Positions 38,715-54,603 of a DNA stretch of 64,000 nucleotides are shown here, piece by piece. This DNA comes from Pelagibius litoralis (lineage in GTDB: Bacteria > Pseudomonadota > Alphaproteobacteria > Kiloniellales > Kiloniellaceae): assembly GCF_011683915.1 (NCBI RefSeq), contig NZ_JAAQPH010000021.1, forward strand, positions 1 to 64,000, written 5' to 3'. Each line of letters begins with the position of its first letter. The first letter of the stretch is position 1. The notes under the pieces were generated by a model that ran no database searches, was not told the origin of the DNA, and was given only the letters and a program-made list of their open reading frames with translations. Both the position numbers and the translations under genes were made by a program.

Positions 38715-38752
38715 GTTGACCAAGCTATGAAATGCTCCAGTTATTGGTCAAC
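38715..38752 (-). terminator. Stem-loop at the end of the V-type ATPase operon
   Basis: Perfect 9-bp arms GTTGACCAA (38715-38723) and TTGGTCAAC (38744-38752) surround a 20-base loop. One arm covers the last three codons of the A-subunit gene. No T-run follows on the minus strand, so it may stabilise the mRNA end rather than terminate. Confidence 0.4.
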
Positions 38753-40612
38753 TTGCTTAGTATAGGTATCTGGGAGTCTGTCGATCTGTCGCAACAAGTC
38801 GCTGTAATCAGGCGACTCTGTTGCAGCATAATTGAAGTTCTTGAATAATCCTGTCAGCTGAGTGAAGTAGCCTCGCGCGGTCGTTTTGTCGGCGAAGTCG
38901 TAGCTGCGGGTCACAAAGTCGTAGACCTTATCGAAGGCCAGCTTTTGCCGCTCCAAGGGCACCGTGGCGTCCACCGGATCAAAGGCGTCCTGCTGCAGGT
39001 AAACCATATCCAGAAACAATGCCTTTTGCTGGGTTACGAAGTCATCCAGGGTCACACCCTCCTCGCCAGTCACCTGCATCATCTGCAGAACCGCATCACC
39101 TCGGTTCAGGAGGTCCTGCATCTCTTCCACCCGCTTGGTCCAACCCGCCGCCAGCGTTTCATCGTACCAGGGTGCGAGCTGCTCCAAATAGCGCGACCAG
39201 GAAAGAAGCGGGTCAACGGCAGGGTAAAATCGTTTGTAGGCGCGGTCCGCCGAGAGACCGAGGAAGCACTTGACGGTCGCCAGCGTCGATTGTGTGACGG
39301 GCTCATCGAAATTTCCGCCGGCCGGGGAAACCGTGCCGATCATAGTAAGACTGCCATGCGCACCGTCGTTGGTTTCGATCACACCGGCCCGCTCGTAGAC
39401 GCCCTTGATCGAGGATTGCAGATACGCCGGGAAACCCTCTTCCCCCGGGATCTCCTCCAGCCGACCAGAAGTCTCGCGCATGGCCTGCGCCCAGCGCGAG
39501 GTGGAATCCGCAATCAACAGCACGTCATAGCCCATTTGACGGTAGTATTCGCCCAGGGTGATCCCGGTAAAGATTGAGGCTTCCCGCGCCGCGACAGGCA
39601 TGGAGGAGGTATTGCAGACGATGATCGTCCGGTCCATCAGCGTTCCGCCTGTTCTGGGATCGGACATCTCGGGAAACTCATTGATCGTCTCGACCACCTC
39701 ACCGGCGCGTTCACCACAGGCCACGACGATCACGACGTCGACCGAGGAGTGACGCGAGATCAGGCCCTGCAGGACGGTCTTGCCGGCGCCGAAAGGCCCC
39801 GGGATACAGGCCATGCCGCCGCGGGCGATGGGATAGAAGGTGTCAATCAGGCGCTGGGTGGTGATTACCGGTTCGTCGGGATAGAGCCGGCGCGACAGCC
39901 CCCGCTTGAGCAGACCGGCATTGAGCGCCTTGCGCACCGGCCATTTTTGCGAAAGCGAAACGGAGCGCTCCCGCCCGGCCTTATCCTCCAACCGCGCAAC
40001 AACCTCGCGCAGGGTAAAGCTGCCTTCCTGGATCCAGGAGACGCGGAAGCTTCCCGGCCAACCGAAGGGCACCATGATCTTGTGCCGGTAACGCCCCTCC
40101 TGGACCGTCCCGACTGTATCGCCTGCGACGACTTCGGCGCCGCTTTTGACGACTGGGATGAAGGACCACTTCTTATCCTCATCCAGGGGCGCGATCTCGG
40201 CGCCGCGCGGCAGGAAGATGCCGTAGCGAGCGGCGACCTTTGGCAAGGGGGCCTGCAGTCCATCGTAGACCTGCCCCAAAAGCCCCGGCCCAAGCTCGAC
40301 GGAGAGCATCTCGCCGCTCTGTTCGACCGCATCGCCGACCGCGACACCCAGTGTGCTTTCGTAGACCTGGGCATCGGCGGTTGCGCCCTGGACACGGAGC
40401 ACTTCGGCCTTCAGGCGTTCCTGCTCACCCCGTTCATTCAGCGCGCCCGGACAGATGTAGATGACTTCGTTCTTCACCAGGTGTCCCTGCCCGCCGTCCT
40501 CGGTGGCCAGGGTTTCGATCTCGACGAGATCGTCCTGTACAGCCACCACACTGGCCGTTGGCTTTAGCGCGATTTCCGGTTTCTGCTGCGCGCCCCGTGA
40601 CTTCCCCACCAT
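38741..40612 (-). CDS. ntpA: V/A-type ATPase catalytic subunit A
   Basis: A 623-residue catalytic subunit. The P-loop is GPFGAGKTV (residues 272-280). A non-homologous bulge domain lies at about 120-210 (RHKIMVPFGWPGSFRV), and the catalytic Glu region is VVACGERAGEV, followed by the SRWAQAMRETSGRLEEIPGE stretch. It hydrolyses or makes ATP in the A3B3 head. It is the last gene of the seven-gene operon; its ATG overlaps the upstream stop by one base (TGATG). It is slightly longer than typical bacterial NtpA (about 590 residues), mostly at the N-terminus. Confidence 0.95.
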   Translation of the reverse strand: MVGKSRGAQQKPEIALKPTASVVAVQDDLVEIETLATEDGGQGHLVKNEVIYICPGALNERGEQERLKAEVLRVQGATADAQVYESTLGVAVGDAVEQSGEMLSVELGPGLLGQVYDGLQAPLPKVAARYGIFLPRGAEIAPLDEDKKWSFIPVVKSGAEVVAGDTVGTVQEGRYRHKIMVPFGWPGSFRVSWIQEGSFTLREVVARLEDKAGRERSVSLSQKWPVRKALNAGLLKRGLSRRLYPDEPVITTQRLIDTFYPIARGGMACIPGPFGAGKTVLQGLISRHSSVDVVIVVACGERAGEVVETINEFPEMSDPRTGGTLMDRTIIVCNTSSMPVAAREASIFTGITLGEYYRQMGYDVLLIADSTSRWAQAMRETSGRLEEIPGEEGFPAYLQSSIKGVYERAGVIETNDGAHGSLTMIGTVSPAGGNFDEPVTQSTLATVKCFLGLSADRAYKRFYPAVDPLLSWSRYLEQLAPWYDETLAAGWTKRVEEMQDLLNRGDAVLQMMQVTGEEGVTLDDFVTQQKALFLDMVYLQQDAFDPVDATVPLERQKLAFDKVYDFVTRSYDFADKTTARGYFTQLTGLFKNFNYAATESPDYSDLLRQIDRLPDTYTKQVDQ

Positions 40613-41322
40613 CAGATCTCACCCTCGAATGATAGTTGCGCCTCTGCACCGAGGCCTGCGGCGATCAGATCTTCGAAGCGGTGCGCCGCGGCTTCACTGT
40701 TGTAGCGGCCCCAACGCTCGACGATGCTCCAGCGCAACACGTAGATCACGACCGCCTCGAAATTAAAGGCGTGACTGCCGGAAAGGCGCTGCAACTGCTT
40801 ATTGGATTGGTCCAGTATCAGGCGTTCCAGTGCGATCGTGTCGCCCTGCTCCATCAAACGGGCAGCCTCACCCAGCCAGGGAAAGACGCGCTCGAGCCGA
40901 AAACCCGTTTCAGCCCAGTTGCGGGCGATATGCCCGGTCCAGCGTCCGAAGCCCCAGGAGTTGTTGCCCGGCGGTGGCCCCTCGCCCCGGGCCCGGTGGC
41001 GCAGTGCGGCCACGCAGGTTCGGATCTCGAGCCGGCCACGCAGGATCTCATGGAGAGTCCGGTTGCCGATCTGGGACAAAGCTGCGCGTCCGCGATCGAT
41101 GACATCCTGCTCAGAGAAGGTCATTGGAAACCGACGCCAGTCAAGGACGTCCTCGATCAGCTTCAAGGTCTCGGCATCCTCGGGCGTCAGCACACGCAGC
41201 CGTTGGTCCAGCTTCAGGCGTGACAGCGGTGGTTGCTTAGCAACGAACAACGCCTCCGGACTCGGCAGACTCGAGATCAGCATCACGTAGCTATCGGACT
41301 CACTCATAACGCCCGCATCCAT
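40612..41322 (-). CDS. DUF2764 family protein of bacterial V-type ATPase operons
   Basis: A 236-residue protein with the pattern of DUF2764, which is found only in bacterial V-type ATPase operons of the Bacteroidetes/spirochaete type. The start includes SDSYVMLISSLPSPEALF. VLDWRRFPMTFSEQDVIDRG and NKQLQRLSGSHAFNFEAVVI are conserved-looking segments. It may take the place of the stalk subunit C, which is absent from the operon (inference). Two Met codons (41322 and 41307) are possible starts; the first directly follows the E-subunit stop. Confidence 0.8.
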   Translation of the reverse strand: MDAGVMSESDSYVMLISSLPSPEALFVAKQPPLSRLKLDQRLRVLTPEDAETLKLIEDVLDWRRFPMTFSEQDVIDRGRAALSQIGNRTLHEILRGRLEIRTCVAALRHRARGEGPPPGNNSWGFGRWTGHIARNWAETGFRLERVFPWLGEAARLMEQGDTIALERLILDQSNKQLQRLSGSHAFNFEAVVIYVLRWSIVERWGRYNSEAAAHRFEDLIAAGLGAEAQLSFEGEI

Positions 41323-42021
41323 TCACTTCACGATCCCTTCCAATACCGCCCGAAAACGGGGCTGGAGGTGCTGAAGGATTAGGGCGGCAACGGCCTGATC
41401 CGTCAGATCAAGCGTAACATCCTGGTCTTTCATCCGCACTGTAATGCCCGAGCCGGTGTCATCCGACGGACCGAAAGTCACCCCTTCCCGCAGCATCTCA
41501 CCGGTCAGGCTCAGGACGAATTGCGTCAGCTGGCCCTTATCCAACTCCTGCGGATCGTTGCGCAGCTCTTCGAGACCCACAATGCTTTCCGGCAGCAGAA
41601 TCTCAAGTGGTTCATCCTCCTGCCCGGCGATCTCATCGCGCACCCGGCCTGCCACGTCCAAAATCATTCGCTCAAGCAGCGCGGGGCTCTCAAGCTGCCG
41701 GGTGACAAGGCGTTGCACGTCGGCGCTGAAGCGCTTCATCAGGACGGCTTTCATATCTAGCACCGTGTCGCGCATCGCGGTCTTGAGCGCTTCTTCTCCG
41801 GCTTTACGGTATGCCTCCGCCTTCTTACGCGCGGTCTCCCGCTGCACCTGTGCATCGGCCCTTGCCTTATCCAGAAGGAATTTCGCCTCGGCCTTCGCGT
41901 CCCCCAGGATCTGCGCGGCCTCCGCCCGCCCCGCCGCTACGCCTTCTTCACGCAACCTGCTGATAAGTGCGTCGACACCGCTCGACATAGCCTGATCCTG
42001 GAGCGCTTTGTTCGCCATCAT
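41323..42021 (-). CDS. ntpE: V/A-type ATPase peripheral-stalk subunit E
   Basis: A 232-residue protein whose N-terminal about 100 residues are a charged coiled coil (VDALISRLREEGVAAGRAEA, then ILGDAKAEAKFLLDKARADA). A globular C-terminal domain follows. This is the usual shape of subunit E, which forms the peripheral stalk linking A3B3 to subunit I. The start overlaps the proteolipid stop by 4 bases. No separate G/H stalk gene is seen. Confidence 0.85.
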   Translation of the reverse strand: MMANKALQDQAMSSGVDALISRLREEGVAAGRAEAAQILGDAKAEAKFLLDKARADAQVQRETARKKAEAYRKAGEEALKTAMRDTVLDMKAVLMKRFSADVQRLVTRQLESPALLERMILDVAGRVRDEIAGQEDEPLEILLPESIVGLEELRNDPQELDKGQLTQFVLSLTGEMLREGVTFGPSDDTGSGITVRMKDQDVTLDLTDQAVAALILQHLQPRFRAVLEGIVK

Positions 42022-42470
42022 GCTGCTCCCGGAATACCGGCGCTGACCACCAGCGCAAAGACGAAGGCGAAGACTCCAAAGCCTTCAATGATCACTGCCG
42101 GCGCCAAAGACAGCCCAAAGATTTCAGGCTTTTCCTTGGCGGCGTTGATCGCGGCGGCGCAGGCCCGGCCCTGCCAGATGCCGCAGTAGAGCAGCGCGAT
42201 ACCCGCAAAGAAGCCGACCCCGAAAAGTCCGCCCGCATTTTCCGGTGTCACCTCGCGGTTCAGGGTGAACATGATCACGATGCCATAGATCACAAAACTC
42301 GAAGGAAAGGCCGAGATGCCGATGTAGCGGCCGTAGCCGCCCTCGGTCTCGAGCATGGCACCAATGCCCGCCTGCCCGGCAATGGAACAGCCGATCGCGC
42401 CGGCGACCGTGCCGATTGCCATCGGCGAATAGATCCCGCTCCAACCCAACGCAAGGACGAGTTCGTTCAC
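42018..42470 (-). CDS. ntpK: V/A-type ATPase proteolipid (rotor ring) subunit K
   Basis: A 150-residue protein with four membrane helices in two hairpins. The start is GTG 42470, preceded by GGAGGTG and overlapping the subunit I stop; the longer frame to 42530 is not needed. The ion-binding carboxylate is Glu129 in APAVIIEGFGVF; Gln100 in GIWQGR is kept. By pattern alignment with Enterococcus hirae NtpK, Thr64 is Ser58, Gln65 is Phe59 and Leu61 is Phe55, while Tyr68 is Tyr62. The first hairpin has no carboxylate, as in duplicated V-type proteolipids. The missing Gln leaves the Na+ versus H+ choice open. Confidence 0.9.
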   Translation of the reverse strand: MNELVLALGWSGIYSPMAIGTVAGAIGCSIAGQAGIGAMLETEGGYGRYIGISAFPSSFVIYGIVIMFTLNREVTPENAGGLFGVGFFAGIALLYCGIWQGRACAAAINAAKEKPEIFGLSLAPAVIIEGFGVFAFVFALVVSAGIPGAA

Positions 42471-44263
42471 GGTTGCACCTCCTTTCGGGCGAACCTGCGG
42501 AAAGCTGTCCCCTCTTCCGGCAAGCCCCATTTGTAAAACTCGATAAAGTTCAGCCTTAGGCCGTGGACCACGCCACTCATCAGCGATAGGCCAAGATTAA
42601 GACTGTGGCCGATTGCAAGGATAAGTATGGCGGCGAGAAGACCGATACCCGGCGAGGCCTGATGAACGGATGTGGCCAGGTCGTTGAAAGTTACGGCCAA
42701 GGACGCACTGGCCAGGCCAAGCGCAAAGAGGCGCATGTAACTCAGCACATCGCCGAAAGCCCCCATCACGCCGGTGAGGCTCTTCATTCCGTCGGCCAGG
42801 CGCCAGAGATAATCACTCGGCTTACGGACCGGGCGCTCACTGCTGAACAGCAGGACGGCGAGCAGACCAATGCCGATCAGCGCCTGGCCAGCAAGAGTCC
42901 AGGAAGCGTCCGTGCCGGCCAACCAGAAAGCCAGGCCGCCGAAGATCCCGGTGATCCAGCCCAGTTTGGAAAGGGCGACCAGACTCCTGCACCGGACATA
43001 AGCCGCCATGGCATTTGCAAAGACGATATGAAGCACACCGACCACGATGGACAACTTCATCATGCTGTCAAAGTCGTTCACGCTGAGTACATGAAGTGTT
43101 CCGGGTAAGGAATCTGGCGGCGGCGTCACGCCGAAATAACTGCCGACGATCACACCATAAAGGATAGTGCAGCCGAAGAGCGACAGACCGAGAGTCCGAT
43201 AGGACCTGCTTGTCCGACTGCGCCCGAGCCGCCGCCAGAAGAGCAAAAGCCCGGCCATCAGCACCGCACCGTACCCGGCATCGGCTAGGATCATGGCAAA
43301 GAAGAGGGAGAAAAACGCGACAAGCAACAGAGTTGGATCCCAACTGCGATAGCCCGGCACCTGATAGAAAACCGCCAGATCGGCGCCGGCCGCGAGTTCG
43401 TCCGGCTGCTCAATCAGGGTCGGCGGATCGTCTTGGGCACCGGGTTCCTCAATCAGACACGCCAATCCTGCCTCCCTGACGTAGGCCTCGACCGTGGCAA
43501 GGGAGTCGACAGGCACCCAGCCCTGAACCGCAACGAGCGAATCGCCATCGCGCGTCTGCTGTTCGGCATAGCTCAATGATGCCTGGTTCTCGGCCTCCGC
43601 CAGATTGACGCTGAGCAGATAGATGTAGCGCGTCAGGGCCTGGCGCTGCGCGACCAGATCCTCCAGCTCGATTTCTGTATCCTCAAGCTGGGCCTTGAGC
43701 TCGCCCAGCGGCAATGCGCCGGTGTGAGTGCGCGGAACGGGCAGCAGATCGCCTGGTGGTTCCTCCTTTGCAATGACAACGAGGTAAACGAAGCGGTGAT
43801 CCTTGCGCAGAATCTGCCAAGGCAGTTCAACGGAATCGAGTGTGCTCAGCAGCGCTAACGGCAGGACATAAAACCATAGCCGGTAGCCAACAAGCGCCTC
43901 ATGAGGCGGAAAGACGAGGTCACCCCAGGGTTCGACGGCTGCGATGCGGTGCTCCAGAAAATCCCGGCGATCGGTGGCGTCGCGCAGTCCTTGCTTCAAC
44001 GCGAGTGCGTCCGTGATGAGGCTTCCGACATCAAACCTGGGATCACGGAGTACCTGCCTTCGTTTCTGCGGCATGTCGGAGAGAAAACGCAGAGCCTTGA
44101 AAGCCGCCTCAGCCCGCGGCGAGGCGACCTTCTCCACCTCGGCGGGACGCGGACGCAGTGGCAGAAGGTGCATGCACCCGAGATCCTGCAACCCTTCGAG
44201 CAAGCCACGCTTTTCCCTGAGCAGGCCGCAGAGCGTGATCTTTTTGAGCCGCAGAATGGTCAT
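42467..44263 (-). CDS. ntpI: V/A-type ATPase membrane subunit I
   Basis: A 598-residue protein with a soluble N-terminal half of two alpha/beta lobes and coiled coil (residues 1 to about 300). A C-terminal half of about seven or eight membrane helices begins around LLVAFFSLFFAMILADAGYG. The conserved Arg-bearing stretch needed for ion transfer should lie in the later helices around SYMRLFALGLASASLAVTFN. It forms the stator half-channels beside the K ring. It overlaps both D (4 bases) and K. Confidence 0.92.
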   Translation of the reverse strand: MTILRLKKITLCGLLREKRGLLEGLQDLGCMHLLPLRPRPAEVEKVASPRAEAAFKALRFLSDMPQKRRQVLRDPRFDVGSLITDALALKQGLRDATDRRDFLEHRIAAVEPWGDLVFPPHEALVGYRLWFYVLPLALLSTLDSVELPWQILRKDHRFVYLVVIAKEEPPGDLLPVPRTHTGALPLGELKAQLEDTEIELEDLVAQRQALTRYIYLLSVNLAEAENQASLSYAEQQTRDGDSLVAVQGWVPVDSLATVEAYVREAGLACLIEEPGAQDDPPTLIEQPDELAAGADLAVFYQVPGYRSWDPTLLLVAFFSLFFAMILADAGYGAVLMAGLLLFWRRLGRSRTSRSYRTLGLSLFGCTILYGVIVGSYFGVTPPPDSLPGTLHVLSVNDFDSMMKLSIVVGVLHIVFANAMAAYVRCRSLVALSKLGWITGIFGGLAFWLAGTDASWTLAGQALIGIGLLAVLLFSSERPVRKPSDYLWRLADGMKSLTGVMGAFGDVLSYMRLFALGLASASLAVTFNDLATSVHQASPGIGLLAAILILAIGHSLNLGLSLMSGVVHGLRLNFIEFYKWGLPEEGTAFRRFARKEVQP

Positions 44264-44865
44264 ACCGTTCCCTCCGCTGAATGCTTGCGCTTAGCGATCT
44301 TGGAACGGACCACCGCCGCCATCTCCTCGTCCGAAAGGAAAACCTTGATGCGCTTGATGTTCGCTCTGGCATTCGGGATCAGAACCTTGTCGAAAAGGTT
44401 CACGCGCTGCGTAATCGTCTTTACGGCTCCGTCGAGAAGGACCAACCGCCGCTCATCAACCTGCACACGGACTCGCAGTTCCAGGACTTCGCGCAGAGCA
44501 GCCACCACATTGTCGACCCAATGCGGCTTGGCCAGCAGAGCATAGGATTTCACTTCGACTTCGACCGCCTCAAGTCTCGGAAGATGCGTGCCCACGAGGT
44601 TCTCCGTCGCCAAACGCACGTCAGAGATGCGCACCAGGCCGGTCAGATCGACATCTTGATTGGAGAGCATGGGCAGAGAACGACCCACCTGCCTGGTTAG
44701 CGTCCCGATCTGCCCGCGCGTTTGCGAAAGAGCCCGGACCGCCTTTGCCCGTTCCGCCATCAGCTGCTGACGCTTGAGATCGAGCGACGGCAGGAAACGC
44801 TCGTAATTGCGCAGACTTTGCGACTCACGGGCCAGCGAGGATTTATTGAGCTGCAGCTTTGCCAT
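44260..44865 (-). CDS. ntpD: V/A-type ATPase central-shaft subunit D
   Basis: A 201-residue, highly helical protein with long terminal coiled-coil segments. The start is LQLNKSSLARESQSLRNYER, followed by FLPSLDLKRQQL, and the end is FDKVLIPNARANIKRIKVFL. This is the classical shape of the rotor shaft that turns inside A3B3. The usual partner subunit F is not encoded in the operon. It starts one base after the B gene ends. Confidence 0.92.
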   Translation of the reverse strand: MAKLQLNKSSLARESQSLRNYERFLPSLDLKRQQLMAERAKAVRALSQTRGQIGTLTRQVGRSLPMLSNQDVDLTGLVRISDVRLATENLVGTHLPRLEAVEVEVKSYALLAKPHWVDNVVAALREVLELRVRVQVDERRLVLLDGAVKTITQRVNLFDKVLIPNARANIKRIKVFLSDEEMAAVVRSKIAKRKHSAEGTV

Positions 44866-44866
44866 G

Positions 44867-46273
44867 TTATGCCTCCTCTGCTTCGGCTAGCTTCGCAGTA
44901 TCAACTCGTGGCAACGCCAACTCCTTCGGATAGTACTTGTCGATCAATTCCTGTTTCATGAGCAACTGCTCGGGCCGAAAACACTCGGCAAGAGTCTGCC
45001 AGCCGAGATCCAAAGCCTCCTCCAAGGGCAGAGTGAGTTCGATATCCATGAAGCGGCCGCGAAAGAGGTTTCCGAACTTCAAAAGCTGCCGGTCGAAATC
45101 GGATAGGTCGAAGGCCATGGCCTGCTTCTGCTGAGCGTCACGGGCGCCGGAATAGAAACGAATCATGGTGTTCATGATCTGACCGTGATCTTCACGGGTT
45201 ACCTTGCCGATCACGTTCTGCTTCAGCCGCGACAGCGAGCCGAAGGGATCGATGACGCCGTCATGCAGATAGAACTGCCCCTCGGTGATGTAGCCGGTGT
45301 TGTCGGGCACCGGATGGGTAATGTCGTTCCCCGGCATGGTGGTCACTGTCAGGATAGTCACCGACCCGCCCTTGGCGAAGTCGCAGGCCTTCTCGTAACG
45401 GCGGGCGAGCTGGGAATAGAGATCGCCCATGTAGCCACGGTTCGAGGGCACGCGCTCCATGGAGATGCCGACCTCTTTCAGGGCATCCGCATAAGCGGTC
45501 ATGTCAGTCAGCAGCACCAGGACGCGTTTGCCCTCCTCCACCGCGAAGCGCTCGGCCACGGCCAGCGCCATATCGGGTACCGGCAGCCGTTCGACGATCG
45601 GGTCCGAAGCCTGATTGATGAACATAACGGTGCGGGAGAACACGCCCGCGTCCTCGAAGGTTTTGCGGAAGGTATGGTAGTCGTCGAAGATCAGCCCCAG
45701 CCCCCCGAAGACAACGATATCCGCATCCGCCTGAATACCGATGCGGGCCAGGAAGGGGTTGAAGGGTTCGCCGGAAACCGAAAAGATCGGAATCTTCTGA
45801 CTCTCGACTAGACAATTGAAAACGTCGATCATCGGCACGTCCGTGCGGATCAACTTTTTCGGGACGATGCGCTCGCAGGGATTGACCGACGGCCCGCCGA
45901 TATCGACCTTAGGATCCATGGAGAGATCGGGACCGCCATCGATGGGCGCGCCGGTTCCGTCGAACACCCGCCCCAGGATGTTCGCTGAGTAGGTCGCCTG
46001 CATGGGATGGCCGAGGAACTTGACCGTGGCGTTGGTAGAGACGCCCTTGGTTCCCGTGAAGATTTGCAGAGAGACCACGTCCCGGTCGATGCCTATGACC
46101 TGGGCCAGCGACGTCTCGCCCTCCGCATCCTCCAGCCGAGCAAGATCACCCAGGCGGACAACGCTCGCTTTGCTCCTGCCGGTCTTGTTATCGCCATTTT
46201 CAGGCACCCGGACTTTCAGAATGTCGCCGACGATCTCGAGGATGCGCGAGTAGCGGACCAGATCACGAAGCAT
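44867..46273 (-). CDS. ntpB: V/A-type ATPase regulatory subunit B
   Basis: A 468-residue non-catalytic head subunit. The degenerate P-loop region reads PIFSVSGEPFNPFLARIG, and VLLTDMTAYADALKEVG, RGYMGDLYSQLARRYEKA and ITHPVPDNTGYITEGQFYLH are hallmark segments. It is the first gene of the ATPase set, with the strong ribosome site GGAGGG seven bases before the ATG. It follows the damaged carbamate kinase gene by 18 bases, so the ATPase is probably transcribed from the promoter of the arc-like module or one inside it. Confidence 0.95.
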   Translation of the reverse strand: MLRDLVRYSRILEIVGDILKVRVPENGDNKTGRSKASVVRLGDLARLEDAEGETSLAQVIGIDRDVVSLQIFTGTKGVSTNATVKFLGHPMQATYSANILGRVFDGTGAPIDGGPDLSMDPKVDIGGPSVNPCERIVPKKLIRTDVPMIDVFNCLVESQKIPIFSVSGEPFNPFLARIGIQADADIVVFGGLGLIFDDYHTFRKTFEDAGVFSRTVMFINQASDPIVERLPVPDMALAVAERFAVEEGKRVLVLLTDMTAYADALKEVGISMERVPSNRGYMGDLYSQLARRYEKACDFAKGGSVTILTVTTMPGNDITHPVPDNTGYITEGQFYLHDGVIDPFGSLSRLKQNVIGKVTREDHGQIMNTMIRFYSGARDAQQKQAMAFDLSDFDRQLLKFGNLFRGRFMDIELTLPLEEALDLGWQTLAECFRPEQLLMKQELIDKYYPKELALPRVDTAKLAEAEEA

Positions 46274-46291
46274 CGCTATCCCTCCAGGATT

Positions 46292-46951
46292 CTAATGCCA
46301 TTCAAGACCGGTTACGACGCCACTCACGGTCGTCCCGGCCGTTCCGTCGACGATGCCCTGCAGCCTACGGTTTTCATCATAGACCGTCGGGATGCCGCCC
46401 CCACCGGCGCAGATGACGATGGTGTTGCGCTCCAGTAACCAGCGGATCGGGCGGATTTCGAAGATCCGCTTGGGCATTGGCGAGGCGACGACGCGGCGCC
46501 ACTTGTCGCCGTTCGGCTCGATAGACCAGTTCTTTTCAGACGCCAGGCGCCGGGCTTCCGCTTCCTCGTAGACCGGGCCGATAAACTTGGTCGGGTCGGC
46601 GAAGGCTGGATCCGTCTGATCGACCTCGATCATTGTCAGGATGGTCGCAAAGGGTACCTCGACCGGTAACAGGTTGCCCATCTCCTGCTCGATCATGTAG
46701 CCGATCATGCCTTCGGTTTCGGCCTCCAGGACATCCAGCGGATAGACCTCCCCCGGTTTGTAGGCCGCCCCCTGCAGGGCGAGCAGGCCGACCTGCGGAC
46801 CATTGCCATGTGACACAACGAACTGGTGCTGCGCCGCGATCGGTACCATGGCTCCAGCAGCGACCCGCACATTCTCTCTCTGGTTCTCCGCGGTCATGGC
46901 CTGACCGCGGCGGAGAAGAGCATTGCCCCCAAGAGCGATGACGATCCGCAT
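46292..46951 (-). pseudogene. arcC: Carbamate kinase with an in-frame internal deletion
   Basis: The 219-residue frame starts with the intact family N-terminus, [20 protein letters not shown], then [20 protein letters not shown] and [20 protein letters not shown]. At residue about 198 the sequence jumps to [12 protein letters not shown], which looks like the usual extreme C-terminus. About 90 residues, including the second half of the ATP site, are missing. The normal length is about 310. The product should be inactive. Carbamate kinase makes ATP from carbamoyl phosphate in arginine or agmatine fermentation. It lies 18 bases before ntpB. Confidence 0.85.
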
Positions 46952-46954
46952 GGC

Positions 46955-47194
46955 TCAAGCTCCGATCGTTGAGACCAGGACGGCCTTGATAGTGTGCATG
47001 CGGTTTTCCGCCTGTTCGAACTGCACGCCGGCGGGAGATTCGAAAACCTCCTCGGTGACTTCCATCTCGGCAATGCCATGTTTCTCAAAGATCTCCTGAC
47101 CGACCTTGGTTTCGCGATTATGAAAGGCCGGCAGACAATGCATGAAACGGGTCGAGCCCTTGCTGGTCGCCACCATCAGTGCGCTGTTGACCTG
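46955..47194 (-). pseudogene. C-terminal remnant of ornithine carbamoyltransferase
   Basis: About 79 codons keep the typical OTC ending. [20 protein letters not shown] leads into [16 protein letters not shown], then [18 protein letters not shown]. The about 250 N-terminal residues, including the carbamoyl-phosphate STRT site, are gone. The piece is joined directly to the truncated YfcC-type gene. It ends 3 bases before the carbamate kinase start, which preserves the original arcB-arcC order. Confidence 0.88.
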
Positions 47195-48117
47195 ATGATG
47201 CCGCGGGCAATGCCGATCACAGGGGCAACGCCCAGCAGTTCGCGGGCGCCGTCGAAAAGGTATTGGTGAAGTCCTCCTCGCTCATGCAAGTGACCACACC
47301 GACCAGGATCGAGGCCACGATGAAGATACCGGATATCTCGGCCATCCACCAGCCACCGGACGAGACACCCCAGATCATGACCGCGAAAGCGAGGACGAAG
47401 ACCAGCAACACGGTCTTGCGGGGCAAAGTGAAATCCAACAGGTGGCTGTCTGCAACAACCTCGCGACCTTTCAGGAAGTGCGCTTCGTTGGATTCCCGCC
47501 GGTCCGCGACGATGGAGGATGCCGTCGGTAATGGGCACACCTGCCGCGTTGGCCGCGATCACTGTGGCAAAGGGATTGATGGTCGAACCCAGGGCGCCAA
47601 CGCCAGCTCCCAGCATAATAATGGCATCCCCGGTCACCGCGTCGTACCTTGCGGCGATCATCACCGGAATAATCAGGCCATAGAACGCCAGAGTTTCCTC
47701 GGCCATGCCGTAGATCGTCCCACCGGCAGCGAAGAGCGCCATAAGGATCGGAATCATCCACTTCTCCCGGCCCCTCATGCCTGTCATGGTCCGCTCGATA
47801 CCGGCATCGATGGCGTCTGTTTTGGTCACGACACCCAGGAAGCCGCCGATGATCAGTACAAAGAGTGCAACATCGATTGCCCGCGCCTCGTAACTCCCCG
47901 GATCAAAGAAACCGGCAATCGGCGCGAGTACCACGTCGGCAAAGCCCTGAGGATTGGGATCAACCTCCTTATAGGTGCCGGGTATCGGAACTTCCTTCCC
48001 CAGTGTCTCGTTCATTTCCCGGTCATATTGACCGGCCTGGACAAACCAGGTGGCAACAGCCACCGCGATGATCAAACCGAACAAGATGGTGTAGGCACTT
48101 GGAAACTTCAGTTTCAT
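47195..48117 (-). pseudogene. YfcC/ArcD-type amino-acid antiporter, broken
   Basis: The first about 200 residues are intact membrane protein (IVVATW-type first helix, then RAIDVALFVLIIGGFLGVVT and GAGVGALGSTINPFATVIAA). After PITDGIL, near 47530, about 40 residues are lost. The sequence continues in another frame with IVADRRESNEAHFLKGREVV and later [21 protein letters not shown] second shift near 47260 restores the first frame for [17 protein letters not shown]. The gene then runs into the OTC remnant. The family exchanges arginine and ornithine or related acids in arginine-deiminase operons. Confidence 0.82.
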
Positions 48118-48370
48118 AGCTTCACGTTTCCCCTGTCATAGAGTCATGAAATCGCAAGGGTTCGCTCAAATTGCAACTCTACAATTCGAAGAACCGTCGA
48201 TTATTTTGTGATATCAACGTGACCTTTCCATCGTCACGACGCGGCGCAATCGGCTGCGGTAACTTGGGCTTGCTTTGTCTCTCCGTGCGCCGGCGGTGCT
48301 CTGTGCCTCCGTCGCAATGGCCTGTGCCTGGCTTGAAACCTCTTCAAGCTGATCGACCCGACTCCTCGCT

Positions 48371-49193
48371 TTTGGGTTAGCCTGTTCCTCGAAGAAGGAG
48401 ACAGACGATGAGGCGCAGCAGGTTTTCCGAAGAATAGATTATCGGCGTCCTGAAGGAGCATCAGGCGGCCGGACGATGCTGTTGTCCACCCGCGCTCGCG
48501 CGAACTGGCCTCTGAGCGTCGCCGTTTCGGCTACCACCGTCTGTACATCCTGCTGCGGTGCGAGGGCTTCCATATCAACAGGAAAAAGGTCTGCCGGTTC
48601 TACAAGGCGGAGCGCCTCACTGTGCGCAAGCGCGGCGGGTGCAAGCGGACCCTGGGCAGTCGAGCCCCGATGGTGGTCCCGCAGGTCGCCAATCGCCGCT
48701 GGAGTCCGGACTTCGCCTCCGATGCGCTGTTGGACAGCCGGCGGTTCCGCATCCTCTGCGTGATCGATGCCTTCACCCGCGAGTGCCTGGCCACTATGGT
48801 GGATAACTCGCTCTCTGGTGTTCTCGTGGCCAGGAAGCTGGATCGGCTCTGCAGTCTACGCGGACGCCCAGACACCATTGTCTCCGACAACGGCACCGAG
48901 TTGACCTCCAACGCCATACTGAAGTGGCAGCAGGATGTTCACGTCGATTGGCACTACATCGCCCCTGGAAACCCATGCAGAACAGGTTCGTCGAATCTTT
49001 CATAGGCCGGCTGCGCGACGAGTGCCTTAATGAGCACCTGTTGACCAGCTACGGCCATGCCCGCAGGGTCATCAATACCTGGAGGAACGGCTACAACACC
49101 CACAGACCGCACCTGAGCCTCAACGGGCTCACCCCGATCCAGTTCGCAACCCGATTCGAAGCGGACCATAACCGGAACAGAGCTAACTTATGA
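48371..49193 (+). mobile_element. Degenerate IS3-family element
   Basis: The OrfA start MRRSRFSEE (48408) is followed by a TAG where the family has Gln, then IIGVLKEHQA. At about 48465 the sequence jumps into OrfB at PDDAVVHPRSRELASERRRF, losing most of OrfA and the start of OrfB. OrfB continues through VIDAFTRECLATMVDNSLSG and SDNGTELTSNAI. A one-base deletion near 48968 then shifts the frame into FVESFIGRLRDECLNEHLLT, ending at a TGA (49191-49193). The ends carry short inverted repeats (GTTAGCCTGTTCC near 48376; its imperfect complement at 49172-49186). Confidence 0.82.
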
Positions 49194-49521
49194 ATGTGGA
49201 CATTTCGGGGAGCTTGTCACTTTTAATCTGACAGTGCCGAGCAAACGCATCTATCACACCGCCGCCACCACCCAAAGCGAGGGAGACCTGCAAAAACAGA
49301 TAAAGCCAAACCACACTGAACCAAACCCAAAAACTGGGTGAATTTACTCCGGCACTTCTAGCTATTTTTAAGTCGACATTGACAATGGGCACGAACGATC
49401 CCACGTCGTCGATTGTTCTGGTCCACCCTAGTGTCCATGCAAGTGTCTCACGATTGTTGTTTTGTTGTCGCATTACGGCATTACCGTGCTGGTTAAGCAC
49501 AAAAGAAATGGAAGCAGTCTA
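49194..49521. other. Gene-free stretch before phaC
   Basis: About 330 bases hold no supported gene. It should contain the phaC operon promoter. The phaC frame is open upstream to 49462, but the added residues do not look like the family. Confidence 0.45.
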
Positions 49522-51267
49522 ATGAAGGATCCAAACGCAACTGAAGTCGCCGGTCACGCGTCACAAAGTGCTTCGGTGACCCGCAAAGCCGACCGCCCTT
49601 TGCGTCGGCATTTAGCGTCGATAACAGGCGGAAGCTCTCCGGCATCCACGCTGACGATGATCAACGACTGGGCGCTGCATCTGGCCAGTGCACCAGATTT
49701 GCAGATCACCCTGGCACAGACGTCGTATGCTCATTGGGTCGCCTGGCTGGGATTTGTTGCAAGAGGGTGTCCCGAAAGCCCGGACCAGCATCCCATTGCG
49801 GCGCAAAAGGGCGACCGGCGTTTTCAAAATGCGGCGTGGACCAAGCCACCGTATGCTGCGATGGCGCAGGGCTTCTTGCTGTTGGAAGACTTTTTCGACA
49901 AGGCCACATCAGAGGTTCCAGGGCTTGATCCGGCACATGACAGGGCGATGACCTTTCTGATGCGTCAAATGCTTGATGCTATGGCACCGTCCAACTTTCT
50001 CGCCACGAACCCCGAAGCACTGGTGCGAACCGTCGAGACGCATGGTGCAAATTTGCAAAAGGGCATTGCCGCGTTCTTGAACGACTACCAAGCGGGGTGG
50101 AAAGGCGCGACACCTGCGCGAACACAGCAGCTGGGTCTGGATGTGGCGTGCACACTGGGCAAGGTCGTATTTCGCAATCATTTGATCGAGCTGATCCAAT
50201 ACGCGCCCAAAACAGGCAAGGTACATCCCGAACCGATCCTGATCGCACCGGCATGGATCATGAAATACTACATCCTTGATTTGAGTCCGGACAACTCGCT
50301 GGTGCGTTATCTGACGTCGCAGGGCTTTACCGTCTTCATGATCTCATGGCGCAACCCGGATCCAGAGGATGCAACGTTGGGGATGGACGATTATCTCACA
50401 CAGGGCCTCTTGGCGGCGGTCGATTACATCACCACCGTAACGGGGGCCGAGCAAATCCACAGCGCCGGCTATTGCCTCGGCGGTACGCTTCTTTCGATCG
50501 CGGCAGCCGCCTTGGCCCGTGACGGTGATGAGCGGTTGGCCAGTATGACGCTTTTTGCAGCCCAAACCGATTTCACGGAGCCCGGCGAATTGAGCCTGTT
50601 TATCAATGAAAGCCAGGTATCCTTTCTTGAGGATCTCATGGACGCACAGGGCTATCTAGAGGCTAATCAGATGATGGGTGCGTTTCAGATGTTGCGGTCG
50701 AACGATCTGATCTGGTCGCGGGTGGTGCGCAGCTACCTACTGAGTGAAAATGACACACCTATGAACGATCTGATGGCCTGGAATGCCGACGGCACGCGCA
50801 TGCCTGCGCGGATGCATTCAGAGTATTTGCGGCATATGTTCCTGAACAACGACTTGGCGGCCGGTCGTTATCAGGTGGGCGGTCATGCAGTGTCACTGCG
50901 AGATATCCGTATCCCTGTTTTTGGCGTTGGGACCGAGACAGATCACATTGCCCCGTGGAAATCGGTCTTCAAGGTGCACTCGTTGGGACATGCCGATGTA
51001 ACCTTTGTCCTGACAAACGGTGGCCATAACGCGGGCGTTCTGTCCGAGCCCGGCCACAAGCATCGCCATTTCCGCGTCCATACAACACGCGATCAGGACA
51101 ACGCCCTGTCGCCGGAGGACTGGTTGGAAACGGCAGCACTGGAAGAAGGCAGTTGGTGGCCCTCCTGGGCCGCCTGGCTTTCAAGGCATTCTGGCCCCAA
51201 GGGCGCGCCACCTAAAATGGGCCGCAAACTGGCTGACGCCCCCGGCACCTACGTCATGATGGAGTAG
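49522..51267 (+). CDS. phaC: Class I poly(3-hydroxyalkanoate) synthase
   Basis: A 581-residue alpha/beta-hydrolase-fold polymerase. The lipase-like box is GYCLGG with catalytic Cys318; Asp474 (TETDHIAPW) and His502 (TNGGHNAG) complete the triad. The N-terminal segments LAQTSYAHWVAWLGFVARGC and PIAAQKGDRRFQNAAWTKPP are typical of class I synthases. It polymerises 3-hydroxyacyl-CoA into PHA granules. The operon lacks phaA, phaB and phasin genes but has FabI, a MaoC-type hydratase/phosphotransacylase and acetate kinase, which can supply or drain acyl groups. Confidence 0.9.
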   Translation: MKDPNATEVAGHASQSASVTRKADRPLRRHLASITGGSSPASTLTMINDWALHLASAPDLQITLAQTSYAHWVAWLGFVARGCPESPDQHPIAAQKGDRRFQNAAWTKPPYAAMAQGFLLLEDFFDKATSEVPGLDPAHDRAMTFLMRQMLDAMAPSNFLATNPEALVRTVETHGANLQKGIAAFLNDYQAGWKGATPARTQQLGLDVACTLGKVVFRNHLIELIQYAPKTGKVHPEPILIAPAWIMKYYILDLSPDNSLVRYLTSQGFTVFMISWRNPDPEDATLGMDDYLTQGLLAAVDYITTVTGAEQIHSAGYCLGGTLLSIAAAALARDGDERLASMTLFAAQTDFTEPGELSLFINESQVSFLEDLMDAQGYLEANQMMGAFQMLRSNDLIWSRVVRSYLLSENDTPMNDLMAWNADGTRMPARMHSEYLRHMFLNNDLAAGRYQVGGHAVSLRDIRIPVFGVGTETDHIAPWKSVFKVHSLGHADVTFVLTNGGHNAGVLSEPGHKHRHFRVHTTRDQDNALSPEDWLETAALEEGSWWPSWAAWLSRHSGPKGAPPKMGRKLADAPGTYVMME

Positions 51268-51270
51268 ACC

Positions 51271-52044
51271 ATGATTCCCAATTCTGAGTTCTTGAAAGGC
51301 AAAAAGGGGCTGGTCGTGGGTATTGCCAATGAACACTCCATCGCAGCAGGATGCGCGCAGGTGTTTCGTGCCTCGGGTGCCGAGCTTTGCATCACCTATC
51401 AGTCAGAAAAGTCCCGCAAGTTCGTCAAACCTGTTGCCGAAGCGGTCGGTGCCGGGCTGTTTCTGCCGCTTGATGTGACGGACCTCGTCCAAACGGATCA
51501 GGTTTTTGCGGCAATCGAGGAAAAATGGGGCCAGCTGGATTTTCTGCTTCATTCTATCGCGTTTTGCCCACGCGAGGACCTGCATGGCCGAGTGGTCGAT
51601 TGTTCGCAGGAAGGCTTTGGACTGGCGATGGATATCTCGGTTCATTCGCTGATCCGGCTGGCTAAACGCGCTGAACCGCTCATGGTGGCGGGCGGTACAA
51701 TCCTGACAGTATCCTATCACGGCGCCGATAAAGTGGTTGATCACTACAACATCATGGGCCCTGTCAAGGCCGCACTTGAGGCAACCACGCGCTATCTATC
51801 CGTTGACCTGGGTCCCAGGAATATCCGCGTAAATGCGTTGTCGCCGGGGCCACTTGAGACACGCGCGGCTTCGGGCATCGACCATTTCGATGCGCTGATT
51901 GAAGACGCAAAGACACGCGCACCCCTGCATCGACTGACAACGATTGCCGAGGTCGGGTCGATGGCGGCCTGCCTTGTGTCCGACTTTGCCCGCTCCGTCA
52001 GCGGCAACACGGCCTATATTGATGGGGGCCATCATGTTATCTGA
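51271..52044 (+). CDS. fabI: Enoyl-[acyl-carrier-protein] reductase
   Basis: A 257-residue FabI. The N-terminal VVGIANEHSIAAGCAQVF is the family NADH site. The active-site residues are Tyr149 (SYHG), Tyr159 and Lys166 in HYNIMGPVKAALEA (YNIMGPVK), with LSPGPLETRAASGI as the substrate loop. FabI reduces trans-2-enoyl thioesters. In this operon it may act on acyl-CoA or ACP intermediates next to the MaoC hydratase rather than serve bulk fatty acid synthesis (inference). It starts 3 bases after phaC and overlaps the next gene by 11 bases. Confidence 0.93.
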   Translation: MIPNSEFLKGKKGLVVGIANEHSIAAGCAQVFRASGAELCITYQSEKSRKFVKPVAEAVGAGLFLPLDVTDLVQTDQVFAAIEEKWGQLDFLLHSIAFCPREDLHGRVVDCSQEGFGLAMDISVHSLIRLAKRAEPLMVAGGTILTVSYHGADKVVDHYNIMGPVKAALEATTRYLSVDLGPRNIRVNALSPGPLETRAASGIDHFDALIEDAKTRAPLHRLTTIAEVGSMAACLVSDFARSVSGNTAYIDGGHHVI

Positions 52045-53443
52045 ACATGACACGCAGATGGGGTTCATCGAAAACCGTCCTTTTGACGAGATCAAGGTAG
52101 GTGATTTTGCCGAACTTGTTCGGACCATCACGGCACAGGATATCGATGCGTTTGCGGTCGTTTCGGGTGATGTGAATCCCGCGCATGTGGATGCGGAATT
52201 TGCCGAAGGGGACATCTTTCACAAGGTGATTGCTCATGGCATGTGGGGCGGCGCGCTGATCTCGAACGTGCTTGGAACGCAGTTGCCCGGGCCGGGGACG
52301 ATCTATTTGGAACAATCACTGAAGTTCCTCAAGCCGGTGGGCATCGGGGATACCGTGACCGTGCGCGTGACGGTGACAAAACGGGATCCCGAGAAGAAGC
52401 GCCTAACGCTCGATTGCCTGTGTAGCAATGGCGACGGCAAACCGGTGATTGCGGGGCAAGCCCATGTAATCGCGCCGAACAAGAAAGTCCGCAGGCCCCG
52501 GATCACGATGCCCGATCTTGTCCTGCACAAGCATGGCGCAATCCATGGCCAGTTACTGGCCCGCGCCCAGACCCATCCCGCGCTGCCGGTGGCCGTTGTG
52601 CATCCCTGCAATGACATCTCGCTTGAAGCGGCAATAAATGCGCATGAGCTTGGCCTGATGGTGCCTATACTGGTGGGCCCCGAGGCTCGGATTAAGGCCG
52701 TGGCCGAACGGGCCGGGCTCGATCTTGCGGGTCTGCGGGTGGTCGACACACCACACAGCCATGCCTCGGCCGAGGAGGCCGTGAAACTGGTGCGCGATAA
52801 ACAGGCGAAGGCACTGATGAAGGGCGCCTTGCATACGGATGAATTAATGGCAGCCGTGGTGCCAAAACAAGGTGGTCTTCGCACAGAACGCCGAATGAGC
52901 CATGTTTATGTGATGGACGTGCCCACCTATCCCAAAACGCTGATCATGACGGATGCCGCTATCAATATCGCGCCGGATTTGAGCACAAAGGCCGATATCG
53001 TCCAGAACGCCATTGATCTGGCGCGCGCCGTTGGTATTGAGACACCGAAGGTAGCGCTGTTGTCAGCGGTCGAAACCATCACTCCGCGTCTGCAATCAAC
53101 GGTCGAAGCCGGAGCGCTGTGCAAAATGGCCGATAGAGGCCAGATCGCGGGTGGAGTGCTAGATGGCCCCTTGGCCTTTGACAACGCGGTTTCCATGGCC
53201 GCTGTGGCGTCCAAGGGTATCAAGTCTGACGTCGCGGGCCAGGCCGATATCCTGGTCGCCCCTGACCTTGAAGCGGGCAATATGATTGCAAAGCAACTAA
53301 TGTATCTTGCCGGCGCTGAGGCGGCGGGCATCGTTTTGGGCGCGCAGGTCCCCATCATTCTCACCAGCCGTGCTGACGGCGATAAAACACGAACCGCCTC
53401 TGCGGCGATTGCGACCCTTTATGCCGAGGCTCGCCGCGTTTGA
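52034..53443 (+). CDS. Bifunctional (R)-enoyl-CoA hydratase (MaoC)-phosphate acyltransferase
   Basis: A 469-residue fusion. Residues about 10-150 form a MaoC/hot-dog hydratase with the catalytic GDVNPAH motif (Asp46, His51). Residues about 165-469 form a phosphate acetyl/butyryltransferase (AVVHPCNDISLEAAINAHEL, then MTDAAINIAPDLSTKADIVQ). The first half hydrates enoyl-CoA to (R)-3-hydroxyacyl-CoA, the PhaC substrate. The second half converts acyl-CoA to acyl phosphate for the kinase that follows. I used the ATG at 52034; a longer frame (51944) lies inside fabI. Confidence 0.9.
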   Translation: MLSEHDTQMGFIENRPFDEIKVGDFAELVRTITAQDIDAFAVVSGDVNPAHVDAEFAEGDIFHKVIAHGMWGGALISNVLGTQLPGPGTIYLEQSLKFLKPVGIGDTVTVRVTVTKRDPEKKRLTLDCLCSNGDGKPVIAGQAHVIAPNKKVRRPRITMPDLVLHKHGAIHGQLLARAQTHPALPVAVVHPCNDISLEAAINAHELGLMVPILVGPEARIKAVAERAGLDLAGLRVVDTPHSHASAEEAVKLVRDKQAKALMKGALHTDELMAAVVPKQGGLRTERRMSHVYVMDVPTYPKTLIMTDAAINIAPDLSTKADIVQNAIDLARAVGIETPKVALLSAVETITPRLQSTVEAGALCKMADRGQIAGGVLDGPLAFDNAVSMAAVASKGIKSDVAGQADILVAPDLEAGNMIAKQLMYLAGAEAAGIVLGAQVPIILTSRADGDKTRTASAAIATLYAEARRV

Positions 53444-54603
53444 GTAGCCTTCTCACACTAAATGCTGGCTCGTCTTCTCTGAAATTTGGGCTTTACCGCG
53501 CCGCACCTGAGCCTGACTTGCTCGCCGATGGCCAGGTTGCGGGCGTTGGCAATACAGCGCAGCTGATCCTGAGGGTCGGTAACAACGCTTCGCAGACCGA
53601 AATCAGCGCAGAAACACAAGCAAGTGCTTTAGCAGAAGTAATGCGCGCTCTTGCGCCACATATGTTCGGTCTTGAAATCACAGGCGTCGGGCACCGTGTT
53701 GTGCACGGTGGCCCGGATTATGCGACCCCCATCGTTTTGACCCCAGAAGTGCAAGACGCACTGGCCTCCTTCATTCCGCTCGCACCGTTGCACCAACCGC
53801 ACAATCTGGCCGGGATCTCCGCCGCGCATCTCGCCTTTCCAGATGCGATTCAGGTCGCCTGTTTCGACACTGCCTTTCACCGTGGACACCCATGGGTCAA
53901 CGACGCCTTCGCCCTACCACGCGCACTTTATACCGAGGGCATCCGCCGCTACGGCTTTCATGGGTTAAGTTACGAATACGTAACCGGGGTGATCGCAACC
54001 GAGTTCCCCGATTTGCAAAAAGGCCGGGTGATCATCGCCCATCTGGGCAATGGAGCCTCGATGTGTGCGATCCGGGACGGCAAGAGCGTCGGGTCGACCA
54101 TGGGGTTCTCGGCGCTGGACGGGCTGCCGATGGGCACCCGCTGCGGGCAGATTGACCCGGGCGTGGTGCTTTATCTGATCGAGCAAAAAAGGATGACGCC
54201 GCATGATGTTTTTCAGCTTCTCTACAAGCAAAGCGGGCTTTTGGGGTTGTCTGATATTTCAGGCGATATGCGGGAATTGCTGGCCTCTGACCAACCCGAA
54301 GCGGCGCAGGCCATTGATTACTATGTCTTCCGTGCCCGCCGGGAGATCGGGGCCTTATCGGCTGTGCTGGGTGGCATCGACGGATTGGTGTTTTGTGGCG
54401 GCATCGGTGAAAACGCGGACGGCATTCGGCGCCGTATCGTTGATGGGTTAGATTATCTTGGCTTACGGATCAACCCGTCTTCGACCCATGGCGATCCGCG
54501 CGACATCGGCACCGGGCCGACCCGTATTCTGGTCGTCCCAACAGACGAAGAACGTGTGATCGCACGCGCGGTGAACCGGGCATTGAACCAAACCAACCGC
54601 TAA
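53440..54603 (+). CDS. ackA: Acetate/propionate-family kinase
   Basis: A 387-residue ASKHA-fold kinase. The N-terminus is SLLTLNAGSSSLKFGLYRAA (Asn8), and RRYGFHGLSYEYV and HLGNGASMCAI are the phosphate and substrate loops. LVFCGGIGENADGIRRRIVD is the adenosine region. It starts at a TTG overlapping the stop of the upstream fusion gene, which is unusual for this family. It converts acyl phosphate and ADP to the acid and ATP, or the reverse. It closes the operon. Confidence 0.92.
   Translation: MSSLLTLNAGSSSLKFGLYRAAPEPDLLADGQVAGVGNTAQLILRVGNNASQTEISAETQASALAEVMRALAPHMFGLEITGVGHRVVHGGPDYATPIVLTPEVQDALASFIPLAPLHQPHNLAGISAAHLAFPDAIQVACFDTAFHRGHPWVNDAFALPRALYTEGIRRYGFHGLSYEYVTGVIATEFPDLQKGRVIIAHLGNGASMCAIRDGKSVGSTMGFSALDGLPMGTRCGQIDPGVVLYLIEQKRMTPHDVFQLLYKQSGLLGLSDISGDMRELLASDQPEAAQAIDYYVFRARREIGALSAVLGGIDGLVFCGGIGENADGIRRRIVDGLDYLGLRINPSSTHGDPRDIGTGPTRILVVPTDEERVIARAVNRALNQTNR

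Follow-up and report, generated by a model that had tools for sequence, protein, structure and literature searches.

Fermenters hold their ion-motive force through ATPases that hydrolyse ATP made at the substrate level, and we know of none in which the ATP-forming pathway (the feeder) and the pump share one operon. The same energetic logic would apply to the locus described here, which lies on the minus strand of a 64,000-nucleotide stretch of the genome of Pelagibius litoralis (Alphaproteobacteria, Kiloniellales, Kiloniellaceae; assembly GCF_011683915.1, contig NZ_JAAQPH010000021.1, positions 1 to 64,000; 'the window' in the following is this whole stretch), and in which remnants of an arginine deiminase (arc) operon run into seven open genes of a V-type rotary ATPase (ntp). 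In our judgement, the locus rather probably descends by decay from a composite operon that is conserved in other bacteria, yfcC-(amino acid antiporter)-arcA-arcB-arcC-ntpB-D-I-K-E-DUF2764-A, and that would encode an arginine-fed, ATP-driven pump.

As to the pump, seven-gene V-type ATPases that include a DUF2764 protein (X in the gene orders given here) occur in chlamydiae, spirochaetes and Bacteroidetes with the gene order E-X-A-B-D-I-K. The gene set of the window is the same, its order B-D-I-K-E-X-A being a circular permutation of theirs, and the models that score best with the window subunits, PRK02118 and PRK09621, are presumably those of this chlamydial, spirochaete and Bacteroidetes type. 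The Ntp V-type Na+-ATPase of Enterococcus hirae is alike in being a V-type rotary enzyme with a double-hairpin K subunit that carries one carboxylate and the conserved glutamine (PMC2359735). It differs from the seven-gene set, which comprises DUF2764 and no recognised F or G subunit.

As to the feeder, YfcC and the exchanger ArcE are taken here to be members of one family (TC 2.A.118). Described arc operons with an ArcE-type exchanger likewise combine arcA, arcB and arcC with an exchanger other than ArcD, which carries out the electroneutral exchange of arginine and ornithine, one ATP being gained per arginine (PMC5300872). They differ from the present case, in which the arc genes continue into the seven genes of a rotary ATPase, the word ATPase being absent from the main text of that paper; furthermore, the clusters reported there hold both exchanger types in just three cases, all Lactobacillales, as against seven loci here in which an APC-family basic amino acid antiporter is additionally present (as a 94-aa fragment in one, L053). 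No description of an arc-V-ATPase operon pairing was found in the openly licensed literature, a scope that does not establish its absence from print.

Conservation of the composite operon

The window ntpB was scanned against 84,980 species genomes, which gave 457 relatives, and the best 80, each with flanks of up to 10 kb, form the set examined here; these loci include 24 Ruegeria near-copies and seven with less than 2 kb upstream of ntpB. Upstream of ntpB and on the same strand, yfcC, arcA, arcB and arcC are found in 11 of the 80 loci (L008, L010, L011, L012, L014, L018, L022, L036, L045, L049 and L053), the hosts of linked loci belonging to Rhodovibrionaceae, Rhodobiaceae, Kiloniellales, Aestuariivita, Tateyamaria and Kordiimonadaceae and, among the gammaproteobacteria, being a Pseudomonadales bacterium and the Osedax symbiont Rs1. 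Five further species of the window's order carry yfcC-arcA-arcB-arcC-ntpB (G407, G413, G428, G430 and G437). When records that occur in more than one collection are counted once (L008=G408, L010=G412, L012=G429, L018=G206, L073=G414), the linked arrangement is present in 16 species of alpha- and gammaproteobacteria, besides the remnants in the window. In all 16 species arcA, arcB and arcC are full-length and open; yfcC is open in 14, the exceptions being L010, where the end of a contig truncates the gene, and L036, where it is broken. The ATPase genes follow the order B-D-I-K-E-X-A wherever enough sequence is available, and the distance from the end of arcC to ntpB is -11 to +78 bases in eight of the 12 loci measured. 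In two Ruegeria (L038 and L044) an arc block lies downstream of ntpA; the L038 copy of yfcC is split in two, and the sequence of that locus stops inside arcA. The association also emerges when the neighbours are clustered without names: outside Ruegeria, which was excluded from this ranking, arcC (13), yfcC (12), arcA (11) and arcB (11), the arcC and yfcC counts including the window, rank next to the seven ATPase genes as the four most frequent families, whereas a family of ATP-binding cassette (ABC) transporters outnumbers them once the Ruegeria loci are counted.

The first-pass annotation had proposed an ancestral arc-ATPase unit, to be sought as intact versions in several genera and to be abandoned if the arc genes stood beside the ATPase in this strain alone. 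The intact versions in 16 species support the unit well and exclude a linkage peculiar to this strain. A chance neighbourhood created by rearrangement or mis-assembly might have been suspected from the broken state of the remnants and from the single genome, in 23 of the family, that has the ntpB arrangement; it is ruled out by the recurrence of the same order in sixteen species, including Tateyamaria omphalii DP5N21-5, and its probability is negligible.

In a sample of 61 genomes of the window's order, ntpB of this type is present in 12 and arcA in 18, with arcA in 10 of the 12 ntpB genomes as compared with 8 of the 49 others (Fisher p 2.3e-5, a value that ignores relatedness and serves as a guide only). 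Of the 10 genomes with both genes, 8 have arcA and ntpB on one strand and no more than about 6 kb apart, five of these 8 being the further species named above, and the two exceptions are the window's own genome, with its remnant and an arcA on another contig (C33), and G438, with arcA and ntpB on different contigs; ntpB is present and arcA absent in G050 and G414. In a sample of the class, ntpB is found in 5 of 385 genomes.

The locus in the window

The ten frames from yfcC to ntpA lie on the minus strand in the places and order given by the first-pass annotation (table 1), with 3 bases between the ornithine carbamoyltransferase and arcC frames and 18 between arcC and ntpB, as it had reported. 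The seven ATPase genes, which it called intact and overlapping, are indeed all open, with junctions that abut or overlap (-64 to +1 bases), and the deletions it saw in the first three genes were borne out by profiles and alignments, arcC, the ornithine carbamoyltransferase gene and yfcC each being partial in comparison with intact copies. Six of the seven ATPase frames match models of V-type ATP synthases, A and B above curated cut-offs, D and K also above theirs, and I and E with strong E-values that fall below the equivalog cut-offs. The sixth of the seven frames to be read, which encodes the DUF2764 protein, had no match at the thresholds of two family scans. The true start of ntpK may lie at about 42476, the annotated N-terminal residues overlapping ntpI. 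No reading frame is left between the seven operon genes for subunits F or G, although no search aimed at these two was made.

What remains of arcC corresponds to residues 1-200 and about the last 20, joined in frame, with approximately 87 internal codons gone; the ornithine carbamoyltransferase remnant corresponds to about residues 254-333 of 333, and that of YfcC to about residues 1-336 of 468, with residues missing within and a change of frame. There is no credible match to arcA in 46274-49300. With arcA absent and arcB and arcC partly deleted, the window copy is not a complete arginine deiminase operon. The simplest account of the missing part would be a single deletion from the interior of yfcC to that of arcB, including arcA, together with the internal deletion of arcC and smaller damage to yfcC.

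Table 1. Genes and gene remnants of the locus and of the divergent cluster beside it, in window coordinates.
Feature	Position	Strand	Basis
ntpA, V-type ATPase catalytic subunit A, open frame	38741..40612	-	NF003220, 747 bits vs cut-off 470
DUF2764 protein, candidate subunit C/d (rotor-to-ring adaptor)	40612..41322	-	family PF10962; predicted model vs C/d chains
ntpE, peripheral stalk subunit E, open frame	41323..42021	-	NF002424, 84 bits, E 8.9e-24, under equivalog cut-off
ntpK, double-hairpin proteolipid c/K subunit	42018..42530	-	NF007200, 162 bits, above cut-off; E. hirae NtpK alignment
ntpI, membrane subunit I/a, open frame	42467..44263	-	NF004429, 220 bits, E 7.7e-65, under equivalog cut-off
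ntpD, rotor shaft subunit D, open frame	44260..44865	-	NF002565, 202 bits, above cut-off
ntpB, regulatory subunit B, open frame	44867..46273	-	NF002555, 711 bits vs cut-off 431
arcC remnant, carbamate kinase with in-frame internal deletion	46292..46951	-	NF009008 profile 1-199/308; two blocks vs intact copy
arcB remnant, C-terminal end of ornithine carbamoyltransferase	46955..47176	-	NF003286 profile 261-331/332; residues 254-333 of linked relative
yfcC remnant, frameshifted and shortened; basic amino acid antiporter of the YfcC/DcuC family	47176..48117	-	NF008611 profile 2-217/492; PF03606
fragmented remnant of a transposase (rve integrase core), between yfcC and phaC	48476..49193	+	PF00665, PF13683
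phaC-like polyhydroxyalkanoate synthase, leads divergent cluster	49462..51267	+	PF07167; 69% match, same position, Tateyamaria omphalii (L148)
fabI-like gene	51271..52044	+	78% match in L148, 80% in L026
MaoC + phosphate acetyl/butyryl transferase fusion, start uncertain	51944..53443	+	PF01515, PF01575
ackA, acetate/propionate kinase	53440..54603	+	homologue of L023 ackA (above TIGR00016 cut-off); 70% match in L022's genome

The G+C content of the locus (0.56-0.62 per 2 kb) is not distinct from the range of the window (0.54-0.63), and a tRNA scan and an Rfam scan of the window gave no matches. At 35359-37143 lies a gene for an AMP-binding ligase, of which a second copy, 96% identical, is found on contig C15 of the same genome; we read the pair as a recent duplication.

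Two arc lineages and the decay of the feeder

The loss of the feeder, as first described, holds locally at the window and not for the genome as a whole, since contig C33 carries yfcC, arcA, arcB and arcC as a complete set, with a porin gene after them. That the remnant is a recent copy of this second operon was considered and rejected: identity of the window pieces (arcC, ornithine carbamoyltransferase and yfcC, in this order) to the C33 copy is 80, 66 and 73%, whereas the values are 87, 82 and 86% with the pump-linked L012 and 85, 82 and 85% with L008. There are, however, several linked copies, from hosts that are more distant, which resemble the remnant no more closely than C33 does. Within the same genus, G019, which has no ntpB, bears an arcA that is 95% identical to that of C33. 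These identities point to two arc lineages in one genome, namely the genus's own, which is intact, and the pump-linked one, which has decayed, and redundancy with the C33 operon is a plausible reason for the decay.

A porin gene directly follows arcC both in the pump-linked L008 (8310-9653, PF13609), where it stands between arcC and ntpB, and in the unlinked C33 operon (L088 6991-8343), the two being 73% identical; the porin is likely an outer-membrane part of the arginine module.

The ratios of non-synonymous to synonymous substitution rates (dN/dS) between the window and its relatives are 0.05-0.38 for the ntp genes and 0.06-0.14 for the arc remnants, and are rough because synonymous divergence is near or above 1. 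Both sets look ancestrally constrained, so the decay is recent, and these ratios do not separate the genes that were kept from those that were lost.

A quick ntpB tree of 74 rows, 52 of them outside the choices made in thinning Ruegeria (to 8 of its 24 loci), places the window and L026, together with the 16 linked loci and both Ruegeria that have the block downstream, in a single group of 42 rows (Shimodaira-Hasegawa-like approximate likelihood ratio test, SH-aLRT, 96), where they are mixed with 20 arc-less loci. The label of arc linkage needs at least nine changes on this tree, with which one origin followed by many losses and several separate joinings would both fit. The clearest loss is seen in Tateyamaria, in which L022 has the full block and its close relative L026 keeps the arcC frame alone, arcA not having been found in a search of the L026 genome. 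Between these two, ntpB is 99% identical with a dN/dS of 0.02, and arcC 70% with 0.26, so that here the ratios do set the kept gene apart from the decaying one. In the L026 arcC (9034-10011), conserved asparagines are lost from the GGNA and HGNG motifs, whose roles in carbamate kinase we take as given, yet its frame runs uninterrupted for 325 codons and shares 11 bases with ntpB; in the window, too, the arcC deletion is in frame, the remnant ending just before ntpB. Two arcC frames that are open but useless thus suggest, without proving it, that translation of arcC helps that of ntpB, the L026 frame possibly being a relic of translational coupling. Decay of the feeder beside a kept pump is recurrent.

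Type of pump, ion and the DUF2764 subunit

The c/K subunit is a double hairpin in which an acidic residue and a glutamine matching Glu139 and Gln110 of E. hirae are kept in 79 of 79 aligned rows. The E. hirae sodium ligand set (Leu61, Thr64, Gln65, Gln110, Glu139) is otherwise incomplete, the window having Phe, Ser, Phe, Gln and Glu, and at the position of Gln65, which is Gln in 17 other loci, all 12 of the arc-linked loci examined carry Phe or Met, a further difference from the E. hirae enzyme. According to PMC2359735, a missing K-subunit ligand predicts protons and ligands can reshuffle in double-hairpin subunits; among the residues named in the ion rule as given there, Phe and Met do not figure (PMC2359735). 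The pumped ions are thus probably protons, sodium being less likely.

The lack of the extra polar sodium ligand would also suit a unit that mainly counters acid, arginine deiminase freeing ammonia while the pump expels protons on the ATP of the same pathway, both activities being established means of raising cytoplasmic pH and energy conservation being secondary. The loci, however, bear no acid-response mark, and the versions with acetate kinase or the polyphosphate kinase PPK2 (see below) yield ATP or polyphosphate rather than ammonia, which makes a main role in pH homeostasis improbable.

DUF2764 (PF10962) is matched by 32 of 33 members of the family of the window protein, the window copy itself scoring weakly (17.7 bits vs a cut-off of 24.1), and a Pfam match to AC39 is found in 2 of the 33, at E 0.045 or worse. 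The model built from the window protein and 33 relatives reached a predicted local distance difference test score (pLDDT) of 87.5. Its best matches in VIA-align are V-ATPase C/d subunits (Thermus 6ly9, Z 12.3; yeast 8eas, 11.4; 1v9m, 10.9; 1r5z, 10.6; next row, 5.6), it being noted that helical models may reach Z 13-14 through arrangement alone, and Foldseek gave no match at E 0.001. The resemblance to subunit C/d is a strong lead, and not proof because the Foldseek result is not significant and helical folds can mislead; if true, this identity would fill the place of the missing adaptor in seven-gene V-type operons.

Other sources of ATP at the pump

Genes for other ATP-forming enzymes also stand beside ntp operons. 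Among 30 genomes chosen from the 80, an acetate kinase gene lies on the ntpB contig within about 20 kb in L022, L023, L024, L026, L047 and L086, as it does in the window; in G413 it is directly upstream of yfcC, and L010 probably has a linked ackA as well, a second contig bearing the start of yfcC with ackA adjoining. In Tateyamaria omphalii (L148 and L022), ackA, pta, fabI and phaC are on one strand and yfcC-antiporter-arcA-arcB-arcC-ntp on the other, which is the layout of the window with the whole feeder. The fabI-like gene of the window is presumably an enoyl-acyl carrier protein reductase. A gene of about 800 codons beside fabI was considered as a phosphoketolase and rejected, being DUF3141.

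In three cyanobacterial loci a PPK2 gene is inserted between ntpB and ntpD (L064 11389-12204, L069 1568-2383, L074 1984-2799), starting 23, 24 and -1 bases after ntpB, respectively, and in L056 (6595-7172) a frameshifted PPK2 that has lost its first 78 residues abuts ntpB; the other five cyanobacterial loci have no PPK2. The product in these cases could be polyphosphate instead of ATP. The acetate kinase and polyphosphate kinase neighbours suggest that the fuel at the pump can be swapped. By extension, and more tentatively, one pump core may have been repeatedly paired with, and have shed, the arginine deiminase pathway, the acetate kinase cluster and PPK2 as modules of fuel-to-ion-gradient operons, a dead arcC frame being kept in some lineages for the coupling of ntpB translation alone.

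Directly upstream of ntpB in two Ruegeria lies a gene of the PF05982 family (Na+-dependent bicarbonate transporters), identified by scanning in L023 (8790-9782) and by position in L024.

Proposed mechanism

In the complete operon, YfcC, as an exchanger of the ArcE type, would bring arginine in and ornithine out electroneutrally; ArcA and ArcB would convert arginine to ornithine and carbamoyl phosphate, from which ArcC would form one ATP, and the V-type ATPase would spend this ATP in pumping ions, probably protons, out of the cell. The unit, presumably expressed as a single transcript, would thus keep the membrane charged under oxygen-poor conditions, when respiration fails and the F1Fo enzyme is without driving force. 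In the window genome, where most of the feeder is deleted and the pump kept, the ATP would come from the C33 arc operon or from the adjoining acetate kinase cluster. The order of the genes, the genes present and the sequence of the c subunit are what suggests that carbamate kinase powers the pump. In favour of the proposal as a whole are the conserved same-strand linkage with short gaps, the similarity of the remnant to linked copies, the single conserved carboxylate in a double hairpin, the presence of F1 beta elsewhere in the genome and the ackA and PPK2 neighbours.

The evidence for FNR/FixK-type sites is suggestive at most: sites with up to 1 mismatch are found upstream of yfcC in 3 of 13 cases, where shuffled sequences would give 0.53, and upstream of arc-less ntpB in 3 of 24 (0.91 expected), and a stricter consensus gave no clear signal.

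Several observations weigh against the proposal. The signal for FNR is weak overall and no FNR-like site is found in the window, the best having 3 mismatches. An arc block upstream of ntpB is missing in 69 of the 80 loci (two of which have it downstream, L026 keeps a relic and some have a short upstream region), and of the 42 genomes without the block among the 50 that were chosen from the 80 and searched, 36 lack arcA altogether; the pump, therefore, does not need the arc block, and arginine is at best one fuel among several. Naive p-values overstate independence, because the arc-bearing loci sit in one ntpB clade. The V-ATPase of E. hirae, with the same type of rotor, can act as a synthase in vitro, making ATP under a large sodium-motive force (PMC12018189). 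The V-type enzyme might likewise be an ATP synthase and the arc genes merely another source of ATP in the same regulon; this is very improbable, given that an F1 beta gene is already present in the window genome (contig C44) and that, as is generally known, one carboxylate per double hairpin means few ions per ATP, which favours pumping.

Finally, the rare and patchy occurrence of ntpB in the genus (1 of 8 genomes) and family (1 of 23), in both cases as the window copy, and a phaC whose only relatives in the genus are paralogues of at most 54% identity point to a horizontal gain of the whole island. The arc, ATPase and acetate kinase clusters might, then, travel together on a mobile anaerobic-fitness island, co-transferred and co-regulated with no direct energetic partnership, as would agree with the transposase remnant at the junction and with the same divergent arrangement in the distant Tateyamaria (L148). 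The tight same-strand spacing of arcC and ntpB, with overlaps, the retention of arc and pump together across several families, and their occurrence in both orders, upstream and downstream (L038, L044), as if re-joined, speak against such an island, however, and we regard mere co-travel as unlikely.

Significance

Why a second rotary ATPase, of the V type, should occur in scattered bacteria that already possess an F1Fo synthase has long been puzzling. The composite operon, in which a complete ATP-forming fermentation and the pump are linked, offers, in these lineages, a direct and testable answer, in that the second enzyme would serve as an arginine-fed emergency charger of the membrane. That the feeder has been lost more than once while the pump stayed shows that the two parts are separable by evolution, and the hitherto unnamed DUF2764 subunit gains a candidate identity as subunit C/d.

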